Source: a virus
Length of the DNA stretch: 40,494 nucleotides
IMG/VR virus record: IMGVR_UViG_3300006750_000020
Span: 1-40,494 of that record
Direction: 5' to 3' (one strand)
The notes under the pieces: generated by a model
The model's input: only the letters and a program-made list of their open reading frames with translations
Told to the model about the DNA's origin: nothing
Databases searched by the model: none
Made by a program: the position numbers and the translations under genes
In this document: piece by piece, positions 6,703 through 40,347 of the stretch
Layout of the letters: every line of letters starts with the position of its first letter
How positions within the stretch are numbered: the first letter of the stretch is position 1

Positions 6703-9099
6703 ATGGCGCGAGGTGGCACAACCGGCGGTAATTCTAACCGCAGCACTCAATCATCGCTACAACGTGGCGGCGGGCACGCCCGACGCGACGGTTCTAAGCA
6801 CTCGACCGGGCGCAAAAAGAATCAGCAAATGTCTGATGAGCAGGTGGTCGGGTTCCTTGGCAATAAAATACGCCGGGCGATGAACAGCGAAGATGGTGAT
6901 CTGGCAAAAGTCCGGCAGGAGAATTTTAACTACTACATGGGCGACGAGTACGGTGGCGAACGCGAGGGGTACTCCAAGTTTGTTACACGTGAAACACTTG
7001 AAACTGTCGAGTGGGTGCTGCCGTCCGTTTTGAAAGTTTTTCTATCAGGCGACCGGATCGTATCGTTTGACGCTGTTAACGCCGAAGATGAACACGCAGC
7101 CCGACAGGAAACGGATCTGGCGAACTACTTTGTAATGCGCGCCAACAACGGCGGGCAAGGCGGATTCTTACCGCTGCATCACTGGATGAAAGATTGCCTG
7201 ATGTACCCGAACGGGTATGTCAAAGTTTACATGGAAGAACGCAAGCACACGGACGTCGGCGTTGTGAAAGGCGTTAACGCCATGGGCGTGCAGATGCTCG
7301 AAAATGACCCGGAAGTGGAAATACTTGAACAGCGCACCCGGCCAAGTCAGCTAGAGGCTGAGGGTAACGTAGTCGATATCGAAGTGTACGATCTGCGCAT
7401 ACGCACCACTAAAGACATTATGGAGCTGCGTATCGTACCGGTGCCTCCCGAAGAAGCATTGGTGGATAACGATTGCACGTCACTGAATTTAGACGAAGCA
7501 GATTTTGTATGTCACCGGGTCAGAAAAACGTATACGCAGTTAGTGCTCGAAGGGCACCCCCCCGAAGAACTGGATCAGGTCGGCAGCGCTGAAACTCCCC
7601 TGTGGAATGATGAGCGGGTTAACCGGTTGTTTTATGAAGATGAAGATCCGGACGCCGAAGGCGATGACGACGCCAGTATGCGCCAGTTTTGGGTACATGA
7701 ATGTTACGCATGGTTTGACTACGACGGCGACGGCGTAGCAGAGCACCGCATGGTGACTATGATCGGCGACCGGGTGTTCTCTAACGAAGAAACTAACTAT
7801 CAACCGCTGATCGCAATGTCCGCAATCCTGATGCCGCATAAGCACAACGGCATGAGCTACATAGATATTATGAAGGATCTGCAATTGCTACAGTCGATTC
7901 TGACGCGGCAGATGCTTGATAATATCTACAAACTCAACGTGCGGAAAAAGTTTATCAGCGAGGACTCGCTAACAGAAGATGGCTCTACCATGGAGGCCAT
8001 GCTTAATACTCAAGCCGAATTCATACCGGTGCGAGGCATGGCGGCTAACGCGGTTATGCCCGATCAAGTGCCGAGTATGGTTGGCGAGATCCTGCCAGTG
8101 CTGCAGTTCTTTAACGAACAGCAGATGCAGCGAACCGGCGTATCTCCCGAGGCAACCGTTAGCGGCAATGACTTGCAAGAAGTGCGTCAAGACGTGATGG
8201 CGAACGCCCTCGACCGGGCCAGTCAGCGTATTGAAATGTTGGTGCGCATATTCTCCGAAACAGGCTACCGACAGTTAATGCTAAAAACGCACCAACTGTT
8301 ACGTTCTCACTGGGATATCGAAAAATCGGTCAAGCTGCGCGGCGATTGGGTGGAAGTGGATCCGCAAGGGTGGCGTGATCGAACCGCTATGAGTATCAAC
8401 GTCGGCCTCGGTTACAACACTAAGCAGACACAACTCGGGCTGTTAACATCATTGCTCGAAATACAAAAAGAAGCGTCGGGAGTGGGCATGGCCGACGGGA
8501 GGCACATTTACCACACGGCTGAGAAATTGGTAGCCGCTGCCGGTTTAGGCGATCCGAGCCAGTATTTCATCGATCCTGATTCTCCTGACTTCCGACCGCC
8601 TGAACCCCCGCCGCCAGATCCAAATATGATTATGGCGCAGGCACAGGCGCAGGCACTCGGGCAGGAGCAGGCGCGCAAAGGTCAGGAAATGCACATCAAC
8701 GCGCAGCATGACGCGCAGAAATTACAGGCCGATCAAGCTGGCAAGCAAATCGATAATCAGCTCAAGCGAACCGATCAGCAAATTAAACTACGCGAACTGG
8801 CGCTGAAAGAGAAAGAAATGATCGCTAACGGCCAGCTCAAAGATGGCGAGATCGCCGAACTGGCTGCGAAGATATCCAATATCGAAGCTGACACGTTGCT
8901 AAAACACGCCAACGCTGATAAGACTATGGCCGAAGCTACTGTGACGGCCATCGAAGGCGGCGAAACGTACAATAAGGCGCTTGAGATCGTAAGTGAGAGC
9001 GGCGAAACTGCCGACGGCGGCGGTGGCCCAACGGCAGAATTTGACAGTGAGGATAGCGACAATGGGCGACGGATTGAAGAAACTGACCCCCCCGAGTAA
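6703..9099 (+). CDS. Portal protein, P22-like
   Basis: 798 aa, in the size range of P22-type portals. After a low-complexity Gly/Ser/Arg N-terminus (1-40), the body starts with an aromatic, Gly-rich helix-loop (NFNYYMGDEYGGEREGYSKF) and ETVEWVLPSVLKVFLSGD, which is typical of this family. The region around 480-510 (NEQQMQRTGVSPEATVSGND) matches the wing/stem of related portals. The C-terminal 150 residues follow a proline stretch (PPEPPPPDP) and form a long Gln/Lys/Glu helix likely to build a barrel inside the head. It forms the dodecameric ring through which DNA enters and leaves. Confidence 0.9.
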   Translation: MARGGTTGGNSNRSTQSSLQRGGGHARRDGSKHSTGRKKNQQMSDEQVVGFLGNKIRRAMNSEDGDLAKVRQENFNYYMGDEYGGEREGYSKFVTRETLETVEWVLPSVLKVFLSGDRIVSFDAVNAEDEHAARQETDLANYFVMRANNGGQGGFLPLHHWMKDCLMYPNGYVKVYMEERKHTDVGVVKGVNAMGVQMLENDPEVEILEQRTRPSQLEAEGNVVDIEVYDLRIRTTKDIMELRIVPVPPEEALVDNDCTSLNLDEADFVCHRVRKTYTQLVLEGHPPEELDQVGSAETPLWNDERVNRLFYEDEDPDAEGDDDASMRQFWVHECYAWFDYDGDGVAEHRMVTMIGDRVFSNEETNYQPLIAMSAILMPHKHNGMSYIDIMKDLQLLQSILTRQMLDNIYKLNVRKKFISEDSLTEDGSTMEAMLNTQAEFIPVRGMAANAVMPDQVPSMVGEILPVLQFFNEQQMQRTGVSPEATVSGNDLQEVRQDVMANALDRASQRIEMLVRIFSETGYRQLMLKTHQLLRSHWDIEKSVKLRGDWVEVDPQGWRDRTAMSINVGLGYNTKQTQLGLLTSLLEIQKEASGVGMADGRHIYHTAEKLVAAAGLGDPSQYFIDPDSPDFRPPEPPPPDPNMIMAQAQAQALGQEQARKGQEMHINAQHDAQKLQADQAGKQIDNQLKRTDQQIKLRELALKEKEMIANGQLKDGEIAELAAKISNIEADTLLKHANADKTMAEATVTAIEGGETYNKALEIVSESGETADGGGGPTAEFDSEDSDNGRRIEETDPPE

Positions 9100-11100: not shown

Positions 11101-12123
11101 ATGAGCACAGCAAACTTTGACCGTTATGATTTAGCCACTTCCGGCGACAACGTGCGGGAAGATCTGACCGATGTTATTTATAACATCAGTCCGACCGAAG
11201 TTCCCTTTCAGGCGAACGTAGGTCGAGGGTCATCCAAATCGACGTTGCACGAATGGCAGATCGATGAGCTGGCAGCGGTGGATACGTCCAACGCCGCCAT
11301 TGATGGTGCCGATTTTGGCACAGATGGAAGTGACGAATCGCAGCGCATCGGAAACTATATGCAGATATCCATCAAGTATCTGGCCGTTTCTCGACGTGCG
11401 AATATTGTCAACAAGGCAGGCCGAAAATCCGAGTTAGCGTATCAAATCGCTAAAAAGGGTAAAGAGCTTCGACGGGATGTGGAAGCGATTGCCACACTTA
11501 GCGGTACAGGTAGTCATGGCGTTGTCGGCAGTAGCTCGGTCGCCATGGAAACCGCCGCGTTAGGTGCTTGGGTCGCAACCAACACTAACCGGGGGGCTAC
11601 AGGCACCGATCCGGCGTTGTCCAACACTACCTACGGGTATCCGGACACGTCAGCAGGTGACGGTACAGCGCGCGCACTATCGGAAGCTACACTGTTAGGA
11701 ATCATTAAAGATTGTTACGTAGCTGGCGGTAATCCAAACATGATAATGGTAGGGCCGACGGTAAAACAACGGTTCTCAACTTATATGTATGGTTCCAGCG
11801 CTCGTATAGCGACGCAGTATCAGGATCAAGGTAAGAACCCTCGCGGGGGCGTTACCGTGGTCGGTGCTGTTGACACATACGTATCCGACTTTTCCGTACT
11901 GGACGTGGTGCCAAACCGCTTCCAGAGGGAACGCGACGTGTGGGTTCTCGATACTGAGTATTGGGAAATCTCATACCTTGACGGGTACAAAACGGAAACT
12001 ATCGCGAAAATCGGTGATGCAGAACGCCGGCACATTCTCGTAGATTGGGGCATATGCTCTAAGAACGAAGCTGCCAGCGGTACGGTTGCAGATATCGACG
12101 AAACAACTGCGATGGTTGCATAA
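11101..12123 (+). CDS. Major capsid protein, SU10-like (DUF5309 type)
   Basis: 340 aa. The start DLATSGDNVREDLTDVIYNI, then SPTEVPFQANVGRG, and the mid-protein hallmark AYQIAKKGKELRRDVEAIAT match the SU10/DUF5309 group of HK97-fold capsid proteins. C-terminal beta-rich parts (VDTYVSDFSVLDVVPNRF, VWVLDTEYWEISYLDG) also fit. It starts at ATG 11101 after AAAGGTAGC. A strong hairpin follows the gene, which may help set its expression above that of downstream genes. Confidence 0.9.
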   Translation: MSTANFDRYDLATSGDNVREDLTDVIYNISPTEVPFQANVGRGSSKSTLHEWQIDELAAVDTSNAAIDGADFGTDGSDESQRIGNYMQISIKYLAVSRRANIVNKAGRKSELAYQIAKKGKELRRDVEAIATLSGTGSHGVVGSSSVAMETAALGAWVATNTNRGATGTDPALSNTTYGYPDTSAGDGTARALSEATLLGIIKDCYVAGGNPNMIMVGPTVKQRFSTYMYGSSARIATQYQDQGKNPRGGVTVVGAVDTYVSDFSVLDVVPNRFQRERDVWVLDTEYWEISYLDGYKTETIAKIGDAERRHILVDWGICSKNEAASGTVADIDETTAMVA

Positions 12124-12711: not shown

Positions 12712-13030
12712 TTCTCCGACCGGAGTGCAGCATTACGTTGATGTAGACGACGATGCTATGCACACCGTCGAATTCACTCCTACCAGCGTTGAGAGTGAGA
12801 TCCTAGATTCATGTGCGGAACTGCGCAGCCTGCACCAAAATAAAGGAGGCGGTTTCCGCCTTGCTGCGCGTACACCTATCAACACTCACATGATGTGGTT
12901 GAAAGAGTGGCAGGAGAATTTCTCCGATAAGTACACATGGATGCAGTTCAAGGTGATGAAATTGAACAGCGCCGACAACAAGAATTTACGCACCGGGCGT
13001 AAGGTTGGCGGGGGTGCCATGCGACTGTGA
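12686..13030 (+). CDS. Hypothetical head/neck protein (114 aa)
   Basis: The reading frame opens at 12650 (GTG), but I prefer GTG 12686, which gives MGKKISLGNSPTGVQHYVDV and a shorter overlap (26 nt) with the gene before. Neither start has a strong ribosome site. The protein has an acidic beta-like N-terminus and a Trp-rich helical part (MMWLKEWQENFSDKYTWMQF). Its stop overlaps the next start (GTGA), so they are coupled. Position suggests a neck or capsid accessory protein; no family is recognised. Confidence 0.65.
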   Translation: MGKKISLGNSPTGVQHYVDVDDDAMHTVEFTPTSVESEILDSCAELRSLHQNKGGGFRLAARTPINTHMMWLKEWQENFSDKYTWMQFKVMKLNSADNKNLRTGRKVGGGAMRL

Positions 13031-13683
13031 CTACCTTATCGCAGCTTAAAACGAGTGTGGATAGCTGGATGGCTCGCGACGACGTGGCCGTTACCAACAC
13101 CGAATTTCCGCAGATAATGCTGGTATGTGAATCGCAGCTCGCGCGTAACTTGCGCCTGTCTATACAGGAAACGTCCGTTACCCTATCGTTCGACGGCCGC
13201 GAAGAAGATCTACCGGCGGATTTCCTCGAACTGCGTAACGTGTTCATCGACGACAACGTGCGCCACACTGAATACATGACGCCGCAAGCCCTACGCGAAT
13301 CCGCAGCGTGGAGCAGTGGCCGGGTCGGTCAGTTTTACACGCTGGAAGGTAATCCGACGGTGCCGACTGACGCCCGTACTAAAATGGTGCTCGCTAATGA
13401 AGGCAGCGCGACGGCGCCTACGAGCGTCGAAGTGCTTTACTACGCACGCCTGCCGGCACTCGTTGATGACCCCGACACGAATTGGTTGTTGGTTAATCAC
13501 TACGACGTCTACCTATACGCCGCGCTGCGCGCCGCGTGCGAGTGGATTCAAGAAGATATCCTCGAAGATCGATACGCCGGCAAATTGGCCGCCGCAATCG
13601 AGGAAATGTCTAAGTATGAAAACCGTAAACGCTACGGCGCGGTGCCTAAGCAGAGTTACGCTGACCCGCGAGGTGTTGTATGA
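13027..13683 (+). CDS. Phage adaptor / head-tail connector protein
   Basis: 218 aa. The N-terminal helices (DVAVTNTEFPQIMLVCESQL, ARNLRLSIQETSV), the motif LPADFLELRNVFID, and the late helical segment (NWLLVNHYDVYLYAALRAAC, ILEDRYAGKLAAAIEEMS) are the usual layout of podoviral adaptor proteins that bind under the portal as a ring. It starts with GTG 13027, overlapping the previous TGA. It ends with a 4-nt overlap (ATGA) with the next gene. Confidence 0.82.
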   Translation: MTTLSQLKTSVDSWMARDDVAVTNTEFPQIMLVCESQLARNLRLSIQETSVTLSFDGREEDLPADFLELRNVFIDDNVRHTEYMTPQALRESAAWSSGRVGQFYTLEGNPTVPTDARTKMVLANEGSATAPTSVEVLYYARLPALVDDPDTNWLLVNHYDVYLYAALRAACEWIQEDILEDRYAGKLAAAIEEMSKYENRKRYGAVPKQSYADPRGVV

Positions 13684-15152
13684 GTACGATACCCGAAATC
13701 GTGCCCTTTGGTGAGTGGATGCCGGATGCGCCTAGCTTTATGAGCGAGGGTGCTATGGAAGCTAAAAACGTGGTGCCGCAGGCTAAGAGTTATCGGTCAC
13801 TAAATTCACTCAACGCGTTTACGAACGCGCTGAGTGATGCGTGCCTAGGTAACTTTTGGGCGCAGGATGAAAATAACGTCGTTTTTAACTTTGCCGGTGA
13901 CACGGATAAGCTGTACGAATTACAAAACACTGACACGTGGACGGACGTTAGCGGCCCGAGTGCGCCATACGCGGCGTCGTCATGGGATTTCACTAAATTC
14001 GGCAACCGCATTATAGCGACGGCCCTCGAAGTGGATCCGCAGTATTGGGATCTAGGGGCCAGCTCGGCGTGGGCCGATTTACCTGCCGCGCCGTCGGCGA
14101 AAGTTTGCGCCACGGTTCGCGATTTTGTGATGTTCGGCGACGTGAGCGGGCAGGGGCCGAACTTTGTGCAATGGTCGGGTTACAACAACTCGGAGCTGTG
14201 GACGCCGAGCTTGGCAACGCAATCGGATTATCAGGAACTATTCGGTCGCGGCGGTCGGGTGCAGCGAGTAGTGCCCGGTGACTACGCCACGATATTTTTA
14301 GAGCACTCAATATTCAGGGCCGACTATGTAGGGCCGCCTGTTATATTCCAGTTCGACGAAGTAGAACGTAATCACGGCACGCCGGCACCGTGGTCGGTTG
14401 TTTGGTCTGGTGGGCTTACGTATTACTACGGGTGGGACGGGTTTTACGCTTTCGACGGCACAGTATCAACACCTATAAGCGCTAACCGGGTGGCTAAATG
14501 GGTCGAGGGTGAAATGGCCTCGGATGCCGTCGATAAAATGCGTGGAGTGGTAGACCGCCAAAACAGATTGATTATATGGGCGTTCCGCACAACGTCGTCC
14601 CTCGACTACAACAACAGGATAGTTATATATAACTGGTCAGCGGATCGATGGAGTTACGCGGAAGTCGATACGCAGGTTTTCAGCGAAGTTGTATCATCCG
14701 GAGTATCCCTCGACGGTTTGGACGTACCGCTGCCTTTAGGCATCGACGTCGAATCTATACCTGTAGATTCTAGTGAATTTGCCGGAGGGGTTTTGTCGAT
14801 ATCGGCGTTCGACGCGGATAATAAAGCCGCGACGTTCAGCGGAGCGCCCTTAACGGCCGTGCTGGATACCGCCGAGATTGCCGGGCCGGATAACAGACGA
14901 CTGTTTACTAACAGCGTGCGCCCCCTTGTGGAAGGTACCGGCGGTACGAATGTAACTATGCAAATAGGTACTCGTAATCAGCTACAAGACAACGTAAGTT
15001 TCTCGGCGGTAAAGTCGTTAAACGGTATTAACGGCGAGGTGTCCGTTAGAGCGGACTCCCGTTATCAGCGTTTTCGCGCGAATATTGGCGGCGGTTTTTC
15101 ACACGCTGACGGTGTTAAACCACAAGCTCGACCGAGCACAGGCAGGAGATAA
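13680..15152 (+). CDS. DNA stabilisation / tail nozzle protein (P22 gp10-like)
   Basis: 490 aa. It opens with PFGEWMPDAPSFMSEGAMEA, a typical start for the packaged-DNA stabilisation family, followed by repeated Trp/Tyr-rich beta strands (FGNRIIATALEVDPQYWDLG, DFVMFGDVSGQGPNFVQWSG, LTYYYGWDGFYAFDG) that fit a beta-propeller. Such proteins form a hexameric nozzle below the adaptor and close the portal. Its place after the adaptor gene, with a 4-nt overlap, agrees. The C-terminal part (from about 330) is a separate beta-rich domain. Confidence 0.78.
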   Translation: MSTIPEIVPFGEWMPDAPSFMSEGAMEAKNVVPQAKSYRSLNSLNAFTNALSDACLGNFWAQDENNVVFNFAGDTDKLYELQNTDTWTDVSGPSAPYAASSWDFTKFGNRIIATALEVDPQYWDLGASSAWADLPAAPSAKVCATVRDFVMFGDVSGQGPNFVQWSGYNNSELWTPSLATQSDYQELFGRGGRVQRVVPGDYATIFLEHSIFRADYVGPPVIFQFDEVERNHGTPAPWSVVWSGGLTYYYGWDGFYAFDGTVSTPISANRVAKWVEGEMASDAVDKMRGVVDRQNRLIIWAFRTTSSLDYNNRIVIYNWSADRWSYAEVDTQVFSEVVSSGVSLDGLDVPLPLGIDVESIPVDSSEFAGGVLSISAFDADNKAATFSGAPLTAVLDTAEIAGPDNRRLFTNSVRPLVEGTGGTNVTMQIGTRNQLQDNVSFSAVKSLNGINGEVSVRADSRYQRFRANIGGGFSHADGVKPQARPSTGRR

Positions 15153-15155
15153 ATT

Positions 15156-16139
15156 ATGTCTACTATAGGCATCTTCAACACTGGAAAAATACATAACGGG
15201 CTGGCCAATGCTTTGCGGGGGACTGCAGAAAAACCCCCTGTAACTCTGCTTAAACCGGGCGAGGGGCAGGCGCCTTATTCAGCTCCGCCGTTTTCAACTA
15301 CCGCCCCGCAGTTTGGCGCCTACAATCATCTAGTGCATAACATGGCGCGCGGCCTCGATCCTCGAATGTTTTCGGTACCGGCTGGCACTTTCGGCGGCAG
15401 CATGGGCGGCTATGGCGGCTATGGCGGCAGCATGGGCAGCAGGGGCGGCTACGGCGGCTATGGAGGCAGTATGGGCAGCAGGGGCGGCTACGGCGGCTAT
15501 GGCGGCAGCATAGGCGGCTACGGCGGCAACATGGGCGGCTATGGCGGCAGCATGGGCGGCTATGGCGGCAGTATGGGCGGCTACGGCGGCTACGGCGGCT
15601 ATGGCGGCTACGGCGGCGGCGGTTTTAGCGGGAGCTTGGGCAACATGGGCGACGCCAGCCAAAACGGTGTTGGCGGCGGCAGCATGGGCGTCCGCCAAAG
15701 CGGTGTTGGCGGTAGCAGGGGCAACATGGGCAGCATGGGCGGCTACGGCGGCATCGGTTTTAGCGGGAGCTTGGGCAACATGGGCGACGCCAGCCAAAAC
15801 GGTGTTGGCGGCGGCAGCATGGGCGTCCGCCAAAGCGGTGTTGGCGGTAGCAGGGGCAACATGGGCAGCATGGTACGACAAAGCGGTGTTGGCAGCAGCA
15901 TGGGCGGCTACGGCGGCTATGGAGGCAGCATGGGCAGCAGGGGCGGCTACGGCGGCTATGGAGGCAGCATGGGCGGCTACGGCGGCTATGGAGGCAGCAT
16001 GGGCGGCTACGGCGGCTACGGCGGCTACGGCGGCAGCATGGGCGGCTATGGCGGCTATGGCGGCAACATGGGCGGCTATGGCGGCTACGGCGGCAGCACG
16101 GGCAACATGGGCGGCTTCGGAAGGAGGATGGGCTACTAA
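15156..16139 (+). CDS. Gly/Tyr/Ser/Met-rich tandem-repeat protein
   Basis: 327 aa. Residues 1-75 are ordinary sequence. From about residue 78 almost everything is built from GGYGGYGGSMG-type units, with MGSRG and GGNMG variants. Inside lies a 39-residue block (GFSGSLGNMGDASQNG..., ending RGNMGSM) present twice nearly verbatim. It lies between the nozzle and ejection genes and its stop overlaps the next start (TAATG), so it is probably a virion protein. Such Gly/Tyr composition occurs in silk-like, adhesive and condensate-forming proteins; none of these roles is shown here. The DNA repeats will favour length changes by recombination. Confidence 0.75.
   Translation: MSTIGIFNTGKIHNGLANALRGTAEKPPVTLLKPGEGQAPYSAPPFSTTAPQFGAYNHLVHNMARGLDPRMFSVPAGTFGGSMGGYGGYGGSMGSRGGYGGYGGSMGSRGGYGGYGGSIGGYGGNMGGYGGSMGGYGGSMGGYGGYGGYGGYGGGGFSGSLGNMGDASQNGVGGGSMGVRQSGVGGSRGNMGSMGGYGGIGFSGSLGNMGDASQNGVGGGSMGVRQSGVGGSRGNMGSMVRQSGVGSSMGGYGGYGGSMGSRGGYGGYGGSMGGYGGYGGSMGGYGGYGGYGGSMGGYGGYGGNMGGYGGYGGSTGNMGGFGRRMGY
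15393..16130. repeat. Coding tandem repeats of the Gly/Tyr-rich gene
   Basis: About 740 nt of short direct repeats based on GGCGGCTATGGCGGC and GGCAGCATGGGC, plus two long near-identical copies of a roughly 117-nt block (near 15624-15740 and 15753-15869). All periods keep the reading frame. Several other frames stay open by chance across this stretch. Confidence 0.9.
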
Positions 16140-16618
16140 TGTCGGCAGCAGCAAAAGATCGGGAACGCTTTGAGGAACTGCGCGCAGAACACGTAGTAGA
16201 AGATACGCGAGCGGCGATAGGCGCCGTCGCGGCTGAAAACGTGATGAAAGTGTGGGATAGGGTTGAACCTATACTGCGCCGAGTAGTTACCCCCGAAACG
16301 GGGCACACTCTGGATTCGGTGCTGAATGAGTTACAGTACGGCTATGCGCAGCTATGGGTCATCGACGATTTTAAAGCGGTAGCTGTTACTAAAGTAATTA
16401 CACGTCCGCTTAACAAGGCGCTGTGGACTCAGTTTATGGCCGGCGAAGATATGTCTAGTTGGTTGGGTGATTGGGAAGAAGTGCTAGGAGATTATGCGCG
16501 GCTTAATGGCTGCGAATTTATTGAATTTATGGGTCGTAACGGTTGGCATAAAAAAATGGCTAAACATCCGGGCTTTAAAGCGACGCATACCATTTTTCGT
16601 AAAAATGTGAAGGTGTAG
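16139..16618 (+). CDS. GNAT-like internal virion protein
   Basis: 159 aa. From about residue 60 the strand-helix order (YGYAQLWVIDDFKAVAVTKV, SSWLGDWEEVLGDYARLNGC, EFIEFMGRNGWHKKMAKH, GFKATHTIFRKN) resembles N-acetyltransferase folds found in podoviral virion clusters, including T7 gp13. Whether it acetylates anything is unclear; the structural role in those phages does not need catalysis. The N-terminus is a charged helix (KDRERFEELRAEHVVEDTRA). Its ATG overlaps the stop of the repeat-protein gene. Confidence 0.6.
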   Translation: MSAAAKDRERFEELRAEHVVEDTRAAIGAVAAENVMKVWDRVEPILRRVVTPETGHTLDSVLNELQYGYAQLWVIDDFKAVAVTKVITRPLNKALWTQFMAGEDMSSWLGDWEEVLGDYARLNGCEFIEFMGRNGWHKKMAKHPGFKATHTIFRKNVKV

Positions 16619-16621
16619 GTT

Positions 16622-18091
16622 ATGGGCGGTGGTAGCGGTGGCGGTACACAAGAGACTAAGAGTACGCCGTGGGAAGGGCAACAACCTTACTTAGAAGATA
16701 TTTTTAAGGAAGCTCAGAGTCAATACGCAGGCGGCGGCGCGCAATATTATCCACATGATACGGTCGCGCCTTTCAGCCCGCACCATGAGGCGGGTTTTGA
16801 CGCCATGACGGCGCGCGCCACGGGCGGCTCGCCTCAAGAATATGCTATGGGTAACTATTTATCGAATACGATGAATATGCAAAATCTGAATCCTTACCAG
16901 TTAGGCGATTACGCTAATCAGGCAATGGGCGGGATAAGTGCCGGGCAGCATATGTTGGGTCAGGCCGGCCAGCCGATGAACCCGTACGCGGCTCGCAATA
17001 TGGCGGGCGTCGGTAGTACGGTACAGAACGCGGGTAGCGCTGCAAATCCTTTCCTTAATTCCCTAGAGGGGATGTCCGGCTATGGTGGGTTAGGCGAGGC
17101 CCGCGATTTTGTCGGTAACGGGACGGGTGGAGTGGCGTTGCCCGTTTCCCAACAGCAGTTAGTTTCATCGACGGAGGGGGATTACCTCGGCGCGAATCCG
17201 TACCTTGATGATATGTACGGAGCGGCGGCGCAATCCGTCACCGACAGCTTCAAAGAAGATCTCCTGCCCGGTATAAACGCCGCGTTCGGTGCCGCCGGAC
17301 GTACCGGCAGCGGCGCGCAGGCTCTAACAACCGGGCGGGCTACCGGTGATACGGTGGCCGAGCTAAGTAACTTGGCTACAAATATATACGGCCAGAACTA
17401 CGAGCAGGAACGCGCCCGGCAGGATCAGGCCGCCGGTTTGCTCGGCCAGCTCGGAATCCAAAGCGGAGATCAGGATATACAGCGCACCGGGTTAGCCAGT
17501 GACTTGTATCTCGGCGAGCGCGATCTCGGGCAATCGGCGGCAAGTTCCGGCGGTAATATCGGCATAGGTTACGGTAACTTAACATTAGGCGAAGGGGAGC
17601 AGGATCTAATGGCGCGCGGTATGTGGTCGGATCTCTACAGCGGTGATCGTGACCGACAGTTTAACGCGGGTAATGCCCTCGGTACCCTTGGCTTAGGCGG
17701 GATGGAAAATTACGGCGATATGTACTCCGATATAGGCACGCAGCAACGGTACGCCGCAAGCATGACGCCGGATTACAGCGCCCTTGAATATGGCAACATC
17801 GACAGGCTACTCGGCGTTGGTGACGCGATGAATTATCATACACAACAGCTTATAGACGCCGAACGTGCCCGTTGGGATTTTGCGCAGGAGGCGCCCGCAC
17901 TGAACTTGGGTGACTACTCCAACATTGTTAACGGTTTACCTTCCGGGCTTGGAAATACGGTATCTACCGGCAGCGGTGGCGGCGGTAACTTTTTACAGGG
18001 CGCAGCGGGCGGCGCGGCGTCAGGCTATGCCGTCGGGGGGCCGTGGGGTGCAGTAGCCGGCGGAATATTAGGAGGAGTGTCATCACGATGA
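16622..18091 (+). CDS. Ejection protein with C-terminal glycine zipper
   Basis: 489 aa, Gly/Ala/Gln-rich. The N-terminus (GGGSGGGTQETKSTPWEGQQ) and repeated Asn/Gly/Tyr segments are typical of internal virion proteins of podoviruses. The C-terminus (FLQGAAGGAASGYAVGGPWG, then AVAGGILGGV) is a glycine-zipper hydrophobic stretch able to insert in membranes. I infer a role in forming the DNA-injection channel across the cell envelope. The ATGA overlap with the next gene indicates coupled translation. Confidence 0.7.
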   Translation: MGGGSGGGTQETKSTPWEGQQPYLEDIFKEAQSQYAGGGAQYYPHDTVAPFSPHHEAGFDAMTARATGGSPQEYAMGNYLSNTMNMQNLNPYQLGDYANQAMGGISAGQHMLGQAGQPMNPYAARNMAGVGSTVQNAGSAANPFLNSLEGMSGYGGLGEARDFVGNGTGGVALPVSQQQLVSSTEGDYLGANPYLDDMYGAAAQSVTDSFKEDLLPGINAAFGAAGRTGSGAQALTTGRATGDTVAELSNLATNIYGQNYEQERARQDQAAGLLGQLGIQSGDQDIQRTGLASDLYLGERDLGQSAASSGGNIGIGYGNLTLGEGEQDLMARGMWSDLYSGDRDRQFNAGNALGTLGLGGMENYGDMYSDIGTQQRYAASMTPDYSALEYGNIDRLLGVGDAMNYHTQQLIDAERARWDFAQEAPALNLGDYSNIVNGLPSGLGNTVSTGSGGGGNFLQGAAGGAASGYAVGGPWGAVAGGILGGVSSR

Positions 18092-19937: not shown

Positions 19938-21992
19938 ATGAGCAGCAATCTTACTAAGTTACAAGAGTTTCGTTCAGAATATCCGGTCTACGATTCATGG
20001 TCGGATGAAGATCTGTTGGCCGGTTTACACGCCAAATTTGACCCGGATATGGACAGGCGCGACTTCGACTCTCAAATGGGCGTCGATACGACTAGCAATT
20101 GGGCGTCGGCCGCGCACGGCATAGGGCAGGGGGCCACGTTCGGTTTTTCCGACGAATTGATCGCAGGCGGCAGGGCGGCCCTCGACCAATTCGCCGGTGA
20201 CGCGCCGGGTTTTAACAAAAGTTATGAGCAAAATTTAGACGACGAACGCCGCAAGTTGGAACGTGCCCGTCGCGATGACCCATGGATAACGGGAATTGGT
20301 GAGGTGGGCGGCGGCCTAGTAACCGGCGGTTACGGAATGGCGAGGTCAGTCGGCGGCCTCGGTCTACGGGCGGCCATGGGTGCCGGCACTAAAACCGGTC
20401 TAAAGCTCGGCGCTTTAGGTGGTTATGGTTACGGTGAAGGTGATCCGCTTATGACAGGTGTATCGAAGCTAACCGGCGGTGACGCTACGCTTGAAGATCT
20501 GCAGCGCGAAGCGCTGGAAGCTGGCACGAACGCCGGTACCGGCGCCGTAGTAGGCGGAGCGCTCGGCGGGGCTTTACCAGTAGTCGGAACGGGTGTAAAG
20601 AAAGTGGCGCAATTTGTGGCGCGGCCGTTCACTAAAAAGGCGCAGATGAATGAAAAAGGGCGACAGGCCATACTGCAGGCGTTAGATGACGACATTGCAC
20701 AAGGGCACATGACGCTGGATCAGGCTAAACGTGAGCTGGCAAGCACTCCCGGTATGCACGTTTCAGATCTCGCGCCGGGGTTACGTGACGCGATGGAAAC
20801 AGTCGCCAACACAGCGACGCCGGCAGGCCGTGCAGCGCGCGAAAATTTAACAGCACGTAATAAAGAACAGTGGAAACGTATTTTTCCGGCGCTGGCTAAA
20901 GCAGTGGGCGGCGAGGATAACTTCGGCGTGGCGCGGCGTAAACTTGTGGCCGGCATGAAAACCCGCGCCGACAAGTTATACGGTATCGCTGACGAAGTAG
21001 ATATCCGCTTAACGCCTAATATGTCTAGGATACTGAAAAACCCCGAATTTAAGCAGGCGATTAAGTTCGCCAATAAGCTGCGGGTACTGGAAGGCGCGAA
21101 GAAACTTCCTAAAAAAGAATTGCTCATCCCCGGTAAGATTTTCAAAACTTCCGAGATGGATCTTGTTGTGCAAGGCATGGATGATCTCGTAACTAGCCTT
21201 TACAAGTCGGCGCCTAAAGTGGCGGACAAGGTGAAGGCGATGCGCGAAGAATTCAAAGATGAATTGTTTGGGCAGAATCCGGCACTTAAAGCGGCGCGTA
21301 AAGCGTGGTCAGGTGACGCGTTAAACAACGACGCCATGGATAAAGGTCTGCGGTTGTTCGCCGACGACGCGGATTTCACGGTGGATATAATTCGCAACAT
21401 GGGCGAGAGCGAGCGGGCCTTTTTTAAGATCGGCACATTGCGCGCTATCTCCCGTAAGCTAGGCAGTAAATCCGACACGTCGGATCTGACTAAGGGGTTA
21501 TTCGATAAGCCGAACACTCGCGAAGCGTTAAAACTGGCGTTCGGAGGTAAAAAGAACTTTGAAGAATTTATGGACTTCATCGGCCGCGAACAAAAAATGT
21601 TTGAGACTTTCAAACACGCTGTAGGTAACTCCGCGACCGCGCGCCGATTGGCGCAGGCGGGTGACGATTCAGCCGGCGGTAAGCTGGCCGGCTTACTCGG
21701 TTTTGTCGGCGCCATGGCGACGGGAATGCGAATCCCGCCGTCCGTTGGCGGCTACGCGGCCCGTAAAGGCTACGAGAGCGTTGCGCAAGCCGGCGGGCGT
21801 ACTACCCGCTTCAACGCGCTGAATGAAGCTAAACGCCAGTTATTGCAGAGCAATGACTTATCGAAGATAACAACTCCACCGAACGCGTTGGGCGGATTAC
21901 TGGTTGCAGGTGCGCCTAATTTACCTACGGCGGGCGGTAATGCCTTACTACAGTCGGGGTTACTGCACACTCGGGATGAGTACGGACGATGA
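19938..21992 (+). CDS. Large ejection / internal virion protein (684 aa)
   Basis: The N-terminus (LQEFRSEYPVYDSWSDEDLL, AGLHAKFDPDMDRRDF) is a segment common to internal virion proteins of many podoviruses. It is followed by glycine-zipper regions (AAMGAGTKTGLKLGALGGYG, TNAGTGAVVGGALGGALPVV) likely to enter membranes. Residues from about 230 are mainly helical. It probably helps build the trans-envelope tunnel with the products of the preceding three genes. No lytic transglycosylase motif was seen in it or its neighbours, so peptidoglycan opening at entry may rely on another factor. Confidence 0.7.
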   Translation: MSSNLTKLQEFRSEYPVYDSWSDEDLLAGLHAKFDPDMDRRDFDSQMGVDTTSNWASAAHGIGQGATFGFSDELIAGGRAALDQFAGDAPGFNKSYEQNLDDERRKLERARRDDPWITGIGEVGGGLVTGGYGMARSVGGLGLRAAMGAGTKTGLKLGALGGYGYGEGDPLMTGVSKLTGGDATLEDLQREALEAGTNAGTGAVVGGALGGALPVVGTGVKKVAQFVARPFTKKAQMNEKGRQAILQALDDDIAQGHMTLDQAKRELASTPGMHVSDLAPGLRDAMETVANTATPAGRAARENLTARNKEQWKRIFPALAKAVGGEDNFGVARRKLVAGMKTRADKLYGIADEVDIRLTPNMSRILKNPEFKQAIKFANKLRVLEGAKKLPKKELLIPGKIFKTSEMDLVVQGMDDLVTSLYKSAPKVADKVKAMREEFKDELFGQNPALKAARKAWSGDALNNDAMDKGLRLFADDADFTVDIIRNMGESERAFFKIGTLRAISRKLGSKSDTSDLTKGLFDKPNTREALKLAFGGKKNFEEFMDFIGREQKMFETFKHAVGNSATARRLAQAGDDSAGGKLAGLLGFVGAMATGMRIPPSVGGYAARKGYESVAQAGGRTTRFNALNEAKRQLLQSNDLSKITTPPNALGGLLVAGAPNLPTAGGNALLQSGLLHTRDEYGR

Positions 21993-22390
21993 GTTTAACC
22001 GGAGCGGCCCACGCACAGGGCGAACTGTTATTACAGGTGAAACCGGCCGTGACCACGGCGGTTACGCTGTTTCAGGCGAGCCAGTTACGCACAGAAATTA
22101 CGCTCTTAGTAGCATCCCTTATAGAAAGTTACAGTGGCGGCGGGGTGAGTATCGTTCTGTATCACGACGACAGCGGCACGACGTATGATGACACCACGGT
22201 TATATGGACAGCGACACGCGCTACTACTGACGTTGATATGCTTTTTCAGGCGCAACACGCCGGATCAGGTATATTTATTAAGCCCGGCGGATCGCTAGGT
22301 GTTAAGATAGACTCCGCTGACGATGTAAATTTTAGCTTATACGGTATCACCGAAACACTCGCGGATATTACTCAAAGCTCGCTAAGGTAA
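21989..22390 (+). CDS. Small virion protein before the tail fibre (133 aa)
   Basis: The start overlaps the stop of the gene before (ATGA). The sequence is largely beta-strand (AVTLFQASQLRTEITLLVAS, VSIVLYHDDSGTTYDD, IFIKPGGSLGVKIDSADDVN) and ends FSLYGITETL. It resembles a small jelly-roll or beta-sandwich attachment protein that could link fibre or spike to the tail. Function is inferred from position. Confidence 0.65.
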   Translation: MSLTGAAHAQGELLLQVKPAVTTAVTLFQASQLRTEITLLVASLIESYSGGGVSIVLYHDDSGTTYDDTTVIWTATRATTDVDMLFQAQHAGSGIFIKPGGSLGVKIDSADDVNFSLYGITETLADITQSSLR

Positions 22391-24015: not shown

Positions 24016-27000
24016 GTGTACTTTATTAGCACGGCTTTTCTTACTGAGGTGCAAGAAACCTACGAGGATGTAGTGTTTAACTTCGTCGCGGACGGCCCGG
24101 ATGGTTATTATACATACGAAGGTTACGGTCAAATGTACCCTCGTAACATCACTGGCAGCGGCGGCACAAAAGCGTTGGATGATCCCGGTGATCCGGTCAG
24201 GCCGAACATATACGGCCCCCAATATTTAACCGCCATATTTTACATTGATAATGGTAGCCTATTCGACGGGCAATTGGCGTTAGGGTTTAGCAACTACTAC
24301 GCAGACCCCGCTTTAGGGGCTATTTTCACCTATAGCGTGGCAATTCAAGGCGTCACAGATACCAATTATTATGAGTTACACACCTTTACTAATCCACAGT
24401 CCCTTTTTGTAATAAATGACGATTTTTTTGTATCGGGCACGTCTATTGCCCCCTTGGTGGACGGCGACGAATACGAAGTAACAATCGTTCGCCGGCCCGG
24501 ATGGCCTGTCGGCGGCTCCGTGTGGAACGCCGTTCTGGACTTCGGGGGTAACGCTTCCGAACGCGGTTTTTCTGACGTGTCCGGCGGGCCGGATATCGGA
24601 TCCATTGTAGACGCTCAGAATAAAGTCGCCGGCGTAGCTCTTAGGGAATTCACCGTAGATAACCTCGGCGATTGCACGTTGAAACTCAAAGGCGATGTGG
24701 CGTCGTCGGTCGCGTTTGGTTCCGCTGATGACGCTTACGCATTAACGCTTCGTTACGGAAAGGACAACGCGCTGACTTCCCTCGGGTATTCGCCTTTCGA
24801 GTATTTAGGCGGATACAACAACAACGCGTCCGGTACGTACACCCCCGAAACCGATACAACAGACTACACTTTTTCCCTCGGCGTGTTCGATACTTCTAAT
24901 GAAGAATACTGCCTAATTTCTAACGCTCACTACGAAGGATACCCCGAGCCGGCCAGATCGACGGCGATTGAAATCACGGCGGCGGACTTACAAGACTTAC
25001 CCATTGTAGGGTACGGATACAACAACAACGGGGCGGCTGATCTGTTAAACGGCGGGTCGATAACCGACAATGACTTCTTAGGTACGACAGTTTTAGCGAT
25101 GAATTCTTGGCGCGATAATGACGGCGCCGCTACTACCCACTTTGAAATATCGTTATCTTGTACCGCCGCACAGGTTCCGAGTTTTGCCGGCGTGCGCATA
25201 TACGGATTAGACGCCTCTGAACCCCTGAAGGATTGGTGGTTTTTAGACGTGTCGGATTTCACTGTGGACGAATGGACGCCGGGCACGACCACCCTTAGAA
25301 CTGTCCGAGTGACTGACGTACTCACAGCGTCGAACGATTATCGGTGTGTAATCGTCCCCGCGATAGTGAATACTGTCCGATTCCGCGCTAATCAGCCCGA
25401 CTGGAACTCTCCGAAGGGTCATATAATAGTGGTAGATGTGGTCACGTCCGGCACTAATGGTACGGAGGCGAAGCGCGACGAAGATTTAGACCAAGCACTA
25501 GGTCTGGATTCCACTTGGGCGGAAAACGAGAAAATGTCCGGTGTGGGGCGTAAGGCCGTGTGGGCTGACTTAGATGACAGTAGCACATTTGAAGAACCTA
25601 ACTATACGTTTGACGATATCGAGGCTTGGTGTCAGACAGCAGCAGACGCCGGTAAAGTGTGCTGGATAGGTGTTATATGGCGGAGCTTTGATCGGGTTGA
25701 AAGTATGCCCCCTTGGTTAGCCAGTGATACCTACCGTAGTTGGGAGGAGATCGGAACTACCGGATACGGTACTACGTGCGCAAGGATGGAGAAGGCAGAC
25801 GTAGCTGGTTACTACATGGACTTGCTGACGGCTCTTGGTGAGCACATGACGGGTAAACCCGGATTCGCGGGGGTTATCACAAGTGAGACTGCACTACAGC
25901 ACGGCGGCGAGCTAACCTCGACCACGGGGCCGCAGTTCAGAGACAATCTAAAGGATGTGTTCTACCATACGTGCGAAACAATGCCTGACTACAACCACTT
26001 CACTTTAGGAAACTTTCTAAACTACCCTAATTCGGTTGATGGTGGGGGTATATCCTCTGGCGAGTTGTACGACGTATTCACTGAAACGTATGATGCTTTG
26101 GCTCTAATCGGGCAATCGAATATGATACTCTGTAGCCCTGATATCATACCTTACCAGAAGGCATTGTCGCTTACCAATAAAAACGATTCTTACAGAACAG
26201 ACCGACTCTACGCCACATGGCGAGAGATAAATAAGACCCACCCAAGCCTAAAAATGTCTAGCTGGATACAGTACAACAGCTTTAAGATAAAACCCCACTA
26301 CGTCACGAACAAAACTGAAGGTGCTTGGGGACTACCCGATACAACACACGCTGGAGATGTTGCCGATCTATGGTCGATGGAGGAAGTTTTCCTTTGGTAC
26401 TTAGAGCAGAACTTCCACTCGGAATGGGTACTCTGGAACTGGTTAGATTACGGCGCGCAGCACTTAGAAAGAGCTAATCAAGGTGGACAGGTAATACGAG
26501 ATTACCCATCTTGGGAACGTCCAGTTAACCTTATCGACTGTAACGTAGCTAAGAACTTCACTACTGGATGGACAGCAACAGGTATTGACTCTGTAGATGA
26601 GGATAACGATAACTACGATGCGCAGTACCAGAAACGAAAAGGTTCGCATGGATGGGTAGAAGATACTGCGACATCCCAACACAAGTATGTATACACCATT
26701 CCAGCAGCAGACTTTCAAGTTGGCGAGGTATACACCGTGGCGTGGTTTGTCCACCAGATACCCGGTGAGGAAACTCGCAGGTTCCGCCTTGAGGCTACAT
26801 CAGCATCGGGAGTTGGAGCGGACATCTCAAGCTGTACGTTTAACGTAGCCACCCTTACCTTCGATAGAGAGTATAACAACGCGGCCGACCCCCGCTACCA
26901 AGAGGCTTGGGCTGTGAAGGATTATGTTCCTGCGACTGGTGCCTCAGTAGATACCGGTCACTTAGAATACTACTACGTACAGATGGACTTTATTCCGGTA

Positions 27001-27141
27001 GCTGATGCGGCCGACACTAACGACATCAGTATCCACTTCAAGTTGGCGGACGCTACTAACGATATAACAGATTGGGTAGGTTCAGGTAGCGCTAACGCTA
27101 AAATCGGAGAATGTTCAGTATTTTACAAGAACAGAAAATAA
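24016..27141 (+). CDS. Tailspike with probable TIM-barrel glycoside hydrolase
   Basis: 1041 aa, starting with GTG two nt after the fibre stop. Residues 1-460 are beta-rich domains. From about 465 comes a barrel-like alternation: GRKAVWADLDDSSTF, DDIEAWCQTAADAGKVCWIG, VIWRSFDRVESMPPW and FAGVITSETALQHGG. The Glu in TSETAL is a candidate catalytic acid. The last 200 residues read like a carbohydrate-binding jelly roll. It probably degrades or binds a surface polysaccharide. The DNA from about 25.5 kb on uses fewer GGC/GCC-type codons and CCGG runs than the rest of the window, suggesting a swapped module. The enzyme family is not identified. Confidence 0.68.
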   Translation: MYFISTAFLTEVQETYEDVVFNFVADGPDGYYTYEGYGQMYPRNITGSGGTKALDDPGDPVRPNIYGPQYLTAIFYIDNGSLFDGQLALGFSNYYADPALGAIFTYSVAIQGVTDTNYYELHTFTNPQSLFVINDDFFVSGTSIAPLVDGDEYEVTIVRRPGWPVGGSVWNAVLDFGGNASERGFSDVSGGPDIGSIVDAQNKVAGVALREFTVDNLGDCTLKLKGDVASSVAFGSADDAYALTLRYGKDNALTSLGYSPFEYLGGYNNNASGTYTPETDTTDYTFSLGVFDTSNEEYCLISNAHYEGYPEPARSTAIEITAADLQDLPIVGYGYNNNGAADLLNGGSITDNDFLGTTVLAMNSWRDNDGAATTHFEISLSCTAAQVPSFAGVRIYGLDASEPLKDWWFLDVSDFTVDEWTPGTTTLRTVRVTDVLTASNDYRCVIVPAIVNTVRFRANQPDWNSPKGHIIVVDVVTSGTNGTEAKRDEDLDQALGLDSTWAENEKMSGVGRKAVWADLDDSSTFEEPNYTFDDIEAWCQTAADAGKVCWIGVIWRSFDRVESMPPWLASDTYRSWEEIGTTGYGTTCARMEKADVAGYYMDLLTALGEHMTGKPGFAGVITSETALQHGGELTSTTGPQFRDNLKDVFYHTCETMPDYNHFTLGNFLNYPNSVDGGGISSGELYDVFTETYDALALIGQSNMILCSPDIIPYQKALSLTNKNDSYRTDRLYATWREINKTHPSLKMSSWIQYNSFKIKPHYVTNKTEGAWGLPDTTHAGDVADLWSMEEVFLWYLEQNFHSEWVLWNWLDYGAQHLERANQGGQVIRDYPSWERPVNLIDCNVAKNFTTGWTATGIDSVDEDNDNYDAQYQKRKGSHGWVEDTATSQHKYVYTIPAADFQVGEVYTVAWFVHQIPGEETRRFRLEATSASGVGADISSCTFNVATLTFDREYNNAADPRYQEAWAVKDYVPATGASVDTGHLEYYYVQMDFIPVADAADTNDISIHFKLADATNDITDWVGSGSANAKIGECSVFYKNRK

Positions 27142-39963: not shown

Positions 39964-40024
39964 TGTGGTTCTCCTGATTTAGTCCATTAGCCATTAGGCC
40001 ATTAGCCATTAGGCCATTAGCCAT
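39956..40024 (-). CDS. Possible 22-aa repeat leader peptide
   Basis: In the leader of the leftward operon, ATG 40024 opens a 22-codon frame that reads MANGL three times, then NQENHND, and stops at TAA inside the start region of the 132-aa gene. There is no clear Shine-Dalgarno. The 15-bp repeat length keeps the frame. It could be a regulatory upstream ORF or a by-product of the repeat. Confidence 0.3.
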   Translation of the reverse strand: MANGLMANGLMANGLNQENHND

Positions 40025-40028
40025 AAGG
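39984..40028. repeat. 15-bp tandem repeat in the operon leader
   Basis: Three head-to-tail copies of CCATTAGCCATTAGG at 39984-39998, 39999-40013 and 40014-40028, the last with one mismatch (CCATAAGG). Each unit is itself a near-duplicated CCATTAG(G). It lies between the promoter at 40032 and the ribosome site of the first gene. Confidence 0.92.
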
Positions 40029-40114: not shown

Positions 40115-40293
40115 CCCTGCTAGCCGCTAGCAGGGCCGGCAGGGCCAGCGGGGCCGCTAGCAGGGCCGGCAGGGCCGGCAGGGCCAGCGGGGCCGCTAGC
40201 AGGGCCAGCGGGGCCGCTAGCAGGGCCAGCGGGGCCGCTAGCAGGGCCAGCGGGGCCGCTAGCAGGGCCAGCGGGGCCGGCAGGGCCGGCAGG
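40115..40293. repeat. GC-rich modular tandem repeat (21/30/39 bp)
   Basis: GCTAGC boxes at 40126, 40156, 40195, 40216, 40237 and 40258 define units of 30, 39, 21, 21 and 21 bp built from AGGGCCAGC/AGGGCCGGC and GGGGCC. All periods are multiples of 3. A minus-strand frame (40120-40317) would encode collagen-like Gly-Pro-Ala triplets, but its only start is a TTG inside a terminator U-run. A 10-bp palindrome (CCCTGCTAGC/GCTAGCAGGG, 40115-40135) opens the array and an AT-rich tract flanks it. Confidence 0.88.
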
Positions 40294-40315
40294 GATATAC
40301 CAGGCGCCCGGCCAC

Positions 40316-40347
40316 AAAAAAACCCGCTAGCGAGGCGCTAGCGGGTT
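40316..40347 (-). terminator. Leftward terminator at the right edge
   Basis: AACCCGCTAGC (40321-40331) and GCTAGCGGGTT (40337-40347) are a perfect 11-bp inverted repeat with a 5-nt loop. Leftward it runs into a stretch of seven Ts. It ends the truncated gene at 40363-40494. The GCTAGC in its stem also occurs in the adjacent repeat array. Confidence 0.88.

Follow-up and report, generated by a model that had tools for sequence, protein, structure and literature searches.

A low-complexity protein encoded after the tail nozzle gene in a clade of short-tailed phages: a possible disordered accessory of the ejection machine

The tail needle of phage P22, gp26, is numbered right after the nozzle. 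In SU10, nozzle gp17 is likewise followed by needle gp18 (PMC9509320). Another small partner of the nozzle is T7 gp7.3, six copies of which are anchored to the nozzle subunits in the channel through a C-terminal loop (PMC11784390). In this protein, 83 residues are unstructured around the DNA, residues 84-98 form the anchor to the nozzle, and gp7.3 has been proposed to be the first protein ejected (PMC11784390). Here, the gene slot after the nozzle is described for a virus record from IMG/VR (IMGVR_UViG_3300006750_000020), all 40,494 bases of which make up the window analysed. Its gene set is that of a short-tailed phage (Table 1); a close named phage is absent from the collection, the top nozzle match being 36% identical.

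The open reading frame that fills the slot is a real gene, since its start lies 3 nt past the nozzle stop, an AGGAGA ribosome-binding site is found 6 nt upstream of its ATG, and its stop overlaps the start of the phrog_7642 gene (TAATG). The ribosome-binding site and the overlapping stop and start also imply that it is co-expressed with the virion genes. Because the repeat is free of stops, its other frames contain long open reading frames as well, as a by-product. An earlier sequence-only reading had placed the gene between the nozzle and ejection genes; it does lie beside them, except that the phrog_7642 gene intervenes before the first ejection gene. At the place of this intervening gene, Paracoccus phage KLEP18-1 carries a gene annotated as an acetyltransferase, an annotation without Pfam support for the phrog_7642 protein.

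Table 1. Coordinates of the virion genes in the window and of features within the slot gene.
Feature	Coordinates	Strand	Remarks
SU10-type portal	6703-9099		
Major capsid protein	11101-12123		
Adaptor	13027-13683		
Tail nozzle protein	13680-15152	+	phrog_3287; PDB relatives 8zkm, 8zkk, 9nwi
Low-complexity slot protein	15156-16139	+	327 aa; between nozzle gene and phrog_7642 gene
Non-repetitive N-terminal part of slot protein	15156-15389	+	residues 1-78; predicted disordered
Short motif GAYNHLVHNMAR	15315-15350	+	residues 54-65; proposed docking motif
Gly/Tyr/Met/Ser-rich repeat region	15390-16136	+	residues 79-327 (249 aa)
39-residue block GFSGSLGNMG...GNMGSM, copy 1	15621-15737	+	117/117 nt identical to copy 2
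39-residue block, copy 2	15756-15872	+	
phrog_7642 protein	16139-16618	+	conserved downstream of slot
First DNA ejection protein	16622-18091	+	phrog_4287
133-aa protein	21989-22390	+	found only in the low-complexity-slot clade

Several features outside the slot were also recorded. Close to where the record ends, a GC-rich 21-bp repeat, GCAGGGCCAGCGGGGCCGCTA, occurs in about seven copies (40130-40294) beside a strong hairpin, CCCGCTAGCGAGGCGCTAGCGGG, and the minus strand of the repeat reads as a 65-aa collagen-like GPAGPASGPAGPA open reading frame (40120-40317). Another repeat, of 15 bp (TTAGGCCATTAGCCA), is present in about three copies at 39979-40028, near an AT-rich stretch, and may mark a region of regulation or replication. 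The tail cluster ends with a 1,041-aa open reading frame that starts at GTG (24016-27141); it has no more than a weak hit in PHROGs (phrog_11815) and none in Pfam, and is a possible tailspike or enzyme.

The repeat region of the slot protein is mainly a series of (GGY)1-4-GG[S/N]M units, which account for the autocorrelation of the sequence at periods of 3, 7, 10, 13 and 23 residues (z 4.6 to 8.4 above composition-preserving shuffles). Its 249 residues include 123 Gly (49%), 31 Ser, 28 Tyr, 22 Met and 10 Arg, only two Asp/Glu, and neither Trp, Cys nor Lys. Sequence entropy was compared for 31 window open reading frames; the slot protein stands lowest, at 3.16 bits, and all others come to 3.66 or more. 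The stretch of about 250 repetitive residues and the duplicated 39-residue block picked out by the sequence-only reading were thus both borne out, the duplication being exact (39/39 aa, 117/117 nt; period 135 nt) in a metagenomic short-read assembly, where repeat numbers may be artefacts. An AlphaFold2 model of the protein returned a mean pLDDT of 44 and no secondary structure; this run on a monomer with a shallow nine-row alignment, in which a docked state would not be visible, fits disorder but falls short of proof. No family was matched in Pfam or PHROGs, no match to named phages was returned by tblastn with the N-terminal 80 residues, and a PDB search with the N-terminus gave none either; the open-access literature yielded nothing on a low-complexity family in the nozzle slot.

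The composition had been regarded as rare in phage virions, an impression that the wider viral data correct for GGY repeats in viruses. Viral contigs encode (GGY)3GG in at least 120 stretches, while the stricter DNA pattern for GGYGGYGGSM was matched in no other viral contig. Many of the (GGY)3GG matches listed come from unrelated, larger viral proteins with long GGY arrays, and others are Gly/Tyr/Met-rich proteins resembling that of the window. Two of the latter belong to structural clusters of other podoviruses: one lies with relatives of portal, capsid and adaptor (L279), and one directly precedes a phrog_7642-type gene (L190). As a separate observation, domains judged by eye to be protease-like, of subtilase type, are apparently joined to long (GGY)n arrays in three contigs (L227, 5626-8952; L244, 2386-5667; L269, 2126-4585), and array length varies among relatives of this type.

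Relatives of the nozzle were gathered from viral contigs, and the slot after the nozzle gene was read in each. In a tree of 101 nozzle proteins obtained by a quick search, the low-complexity slot maps to a single clade of 27 members (SH-aLRT 100). The slot of close relatives usually holds a low-complexity protein of about 95-320 residues where complete, and its position is constant across the clade: the nozzle gene directly precedes it, and the phrog_7642-type and ejection genes follow closely. The tails of these proteins are diverse: Gly/Met/Tyr-rich in L037, L113 and L121, Gln/Gly/Tyr-rich in L036 and L139, made of GLQ repeats in L119, and Pro-rich, with no GGY repeats, in L116 and L117. The silk-like repeat, which had been taken as the hallmark of the protein, therefore finds no support as its essence; what the relatives keep is a short motif. 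The window protein belongs to this family by gene position, by its N-terminal motif and by a nozzle that falls inside the clade. In one relative (L130, 7895-8197), an extra Lys/Arg-rich protein of 100 aa is encoded between the nozzle and the low-complexity protein.

The shared motif, GxYNxLAxDMSR, lies near the N-terminus of most slot relatives and takes the form GAYNHLVHNMAR in the window. With a weight matrix built from the relatives and leaving out the window protein, the window motif scored 20.1 bits, ahead of every other among the 1,641 window reading frames (runner-up 14.9), and this score was reached by one of 20,000 shuffles of the first 80 residues of the slot protein. In five clade members (L118, L134, L047, L038, L120), the motif match is weak or lacking, so the motif is widespread without being universal. 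Beyond it, a MAFFT alignment of the whole low-complexity proteins holds few trustworthy columns. The gene is under selection as well, with dN/dS values of 0.07, 0.22, 0.33, 0.35 and 0.40 in five pairs of relatives (nozzle 0.06-0.13), values that are rough where the dS of a pair exceeds 1 or the repeat alignment is gappy. Between L116 and L117, changes in the slot gene at codon positions 1, 2 and 3 number 3, 2 and 23. As judged from these comparisons, the slot protein is constrained by purifying selection, with frequent indels in the tail.

The gene has nevertheless been dispensed with in two clade lineages. In L112, the stop of the nozzle gene and the start of the phrog_7642-type gene overlap, and in L136 and L137 the slot gene is likewise absent; the cassette is otherwise intact in all three. 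Elsewhere in the L136 and L137 contigs, neither a convincing motif match nor another such low-complexity protein was found. The low-complexity protein is therefore accessory and not essential.

Taken together, a predicted disordered tail, a conserved motif and a position between the nozzle and ejection genes are most simply explained by a docked, flexible component. Tentatively, with a probability of roughly 0.4, the slot product is an accessory disordered part of the tail or ejection machine, docked through its motif, with a flexible tail in or near the channel in the manner of T7 gp7.3. The place in the virion, the docking partner, the role at the channel and the ejection that we infer for it would be as follows. 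Produced alongside the nozzle and ejection proteins, the protein would dock through the roughly 10-residue GxYNxLAxDMSR motif on a folded partner in the virion, with the nozzle and the ejection complex as the likeliest candidates; conservation of the motif leaves the partner unspecified, and its docking role is a proposal. The long, almost uncharged Gly-rich tail would then serve, within the DNA exit channel or around it, as flexible filling or as a guide, and the protein would probably exit along with the ejection proteins. Only flexibility and broad composition would matter in such a tail, and its sequence and length could therefore drift by repeat slippage. Among the three roles offered by the sequence-only reading (head filler, linker around the ejection complex, sticky surface layer), the linker fares best, given the predicted disorder and the virion operon, and its location is a point that we infer.

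The same gene placement, between nozzle and ejection genes, together with the tolerated loss of the gene, would also suit an assembly factor, that is, a disordered chaperone or scaffold that mounts the nozzle or ejection proteins and is absent or residual in the mature particle. Neither sequence nor structure hints at a chaperone function, however, and this explanation is considered somewhat unlikely.

A further explanation, which is doubtful, starts from the folded protein that the slot holds elsewhere. Outside the clade, the slot is usually occupied by a protein of about 105 aa (alignment A6), modelled by AlphaFold with a pLDDT of 82 as a helix plus a beta-sandwich; its top Foldseek matches, which are weak, are the receptor-binding domain of the Pam1 tailspike (E 0.002) and an R2-pyocin fibre (E 0.06). 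Of 21 records outside the clade, 16 have it; none of the 12 clade records searched does. The slot protein might accordingly be a substitute for the needle or tip, forming or tethering the distal end of the tail as a flexible external adhesive, perhaps together with the 133-aa protein: it occupies the place of the needles right after the nozzle (SU10 gp18, PMC9509320, and, as general background, P22 gp26), and the protein missing from the clade records searched folds like tailspike and fibre tips. On the other hand, neither a coiled coil nor a folded tip emerges from the prediction for the slot protein, and a profile comparison with the 105-aa protein gave no sign of homology between the two. 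The gene for the 133-aa protein was found in 12 clade records and in 0 of 21 outside, the clade records that lack it being solely fragments of 11-23 kb. Its product and the tip-like protein are thus mutually exclusive. A profile comparison between them detected no similarity, and the product has no PHROG, Pfam or convincing PDB match. By gene content, it looks like a substitute for the 105-aa protein that left the slot to the low-complexity protein. Since L136 and L137 have neither slot protein yet retain this gene, it is the better candidate for a replaced tip, and the idea that the slot protein is needed as a tip is weakened.

The composition of the tail invites a quite improbable alternative, in which Tyr/Arg stickers and Gly/Ser spacers form a condensate or hydrogel, either as a cohesive plug of the channel or head or as an assembly condensate that concentrates virion proteins. 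The 28 Tyr and 10 Arg over 249 residues, with two acidic residues, would suit this, and the Gln/Gly/Tyr-rich relatives resemble eukaryotic prion-like domains in composition. Conversely, Pro-rich proteins with no GGY repeats occupy the same slot in L116 and L117, so that any need for cohesive Tyr/Gly repeats is not conserved. A special form of the idea, to which we give little credence, is a Gly/Tyr plug, cohesive yet deformable, that sits in the nozzle or the ejection channel, in principle like the FG gel of the nuclear pore, with the motif as its sole anchor; if true, the DNA exit would be sealed while ejection proteins could pass, and the protein would evolve by composition rather than by sequence.

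In an independent podovirus lineage, the interval between nozzle and phrog_7642-type genes encodes a Pro/Met/Gly-rich protein (L214, 6968-7987). At its C-terminal end, 82 aa match tape-measure-type proteins of Caulobacter phages at 56%. Tape-measure proteins are internal parts of the virion, and this sequence match points inward, away from a surface coat and in favour of the docked component of the tail or ejection machine. A role away from the tail, as head filler or surface coat, which the composition of the slot protein would allow, is very unlikely, as the gene sits with the nozzle and ejection genes and not beside the capsid gene. Least credible of all is a neutral, slippage-prone filler with no function, which the two lineages without the gene and the rapid indel turnover would fit, but which purifying selection in five pairs and the conserved motif disfavour.

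In the slot after the nozzle, the clade thus has a protein under selection that is predicted to be disordered, in the place that a folded, tip-like one fills in its relatives. Disordered parts of the ejection machines of short-tailed phages are difficult to see by cryo-EM, and the series of tails found here (Gly/Tyr/Met, Gln/Gly/Tyr, Pro-rich, absent) lets the role of such proteins be asked. Gly/Tyr/Ser repeats with almost no charge are typical of eukaryotic hnRNP/FUS-type glycine-rich low-complexity domains and silk-like proteins, which the slot protein resembles by composition only. The (GGY)n arrays of L193, L227 and L269 share its triplet repeats, but form part of longer, folded proteins whose genes lie in different surroundings. 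Like the tail needles of P22 and SU10 (gp26 and gp18), the slot gene directly follows the nozzle gene; unlike the needles, with their coiled-coil shaft and folded tip, its product has no predicted secondary structure (pLDDT 44, monomer, shallow alignment). The 105-aa outgroup protein occupies the identical slot, but is folded where the slot protein is predicted to be disordered. T7 gp7.3 is, like the slot protein with its predicted disorder, a small and mostly unstructured podovirus protein; it differs in its length of 99 aa, its mostly positively charged N-terminus and its C-terminal anchor, whereas the motif of the slot protein lies near the N-terminus. By analogy, the slot protein may work like T7 gp7.3.
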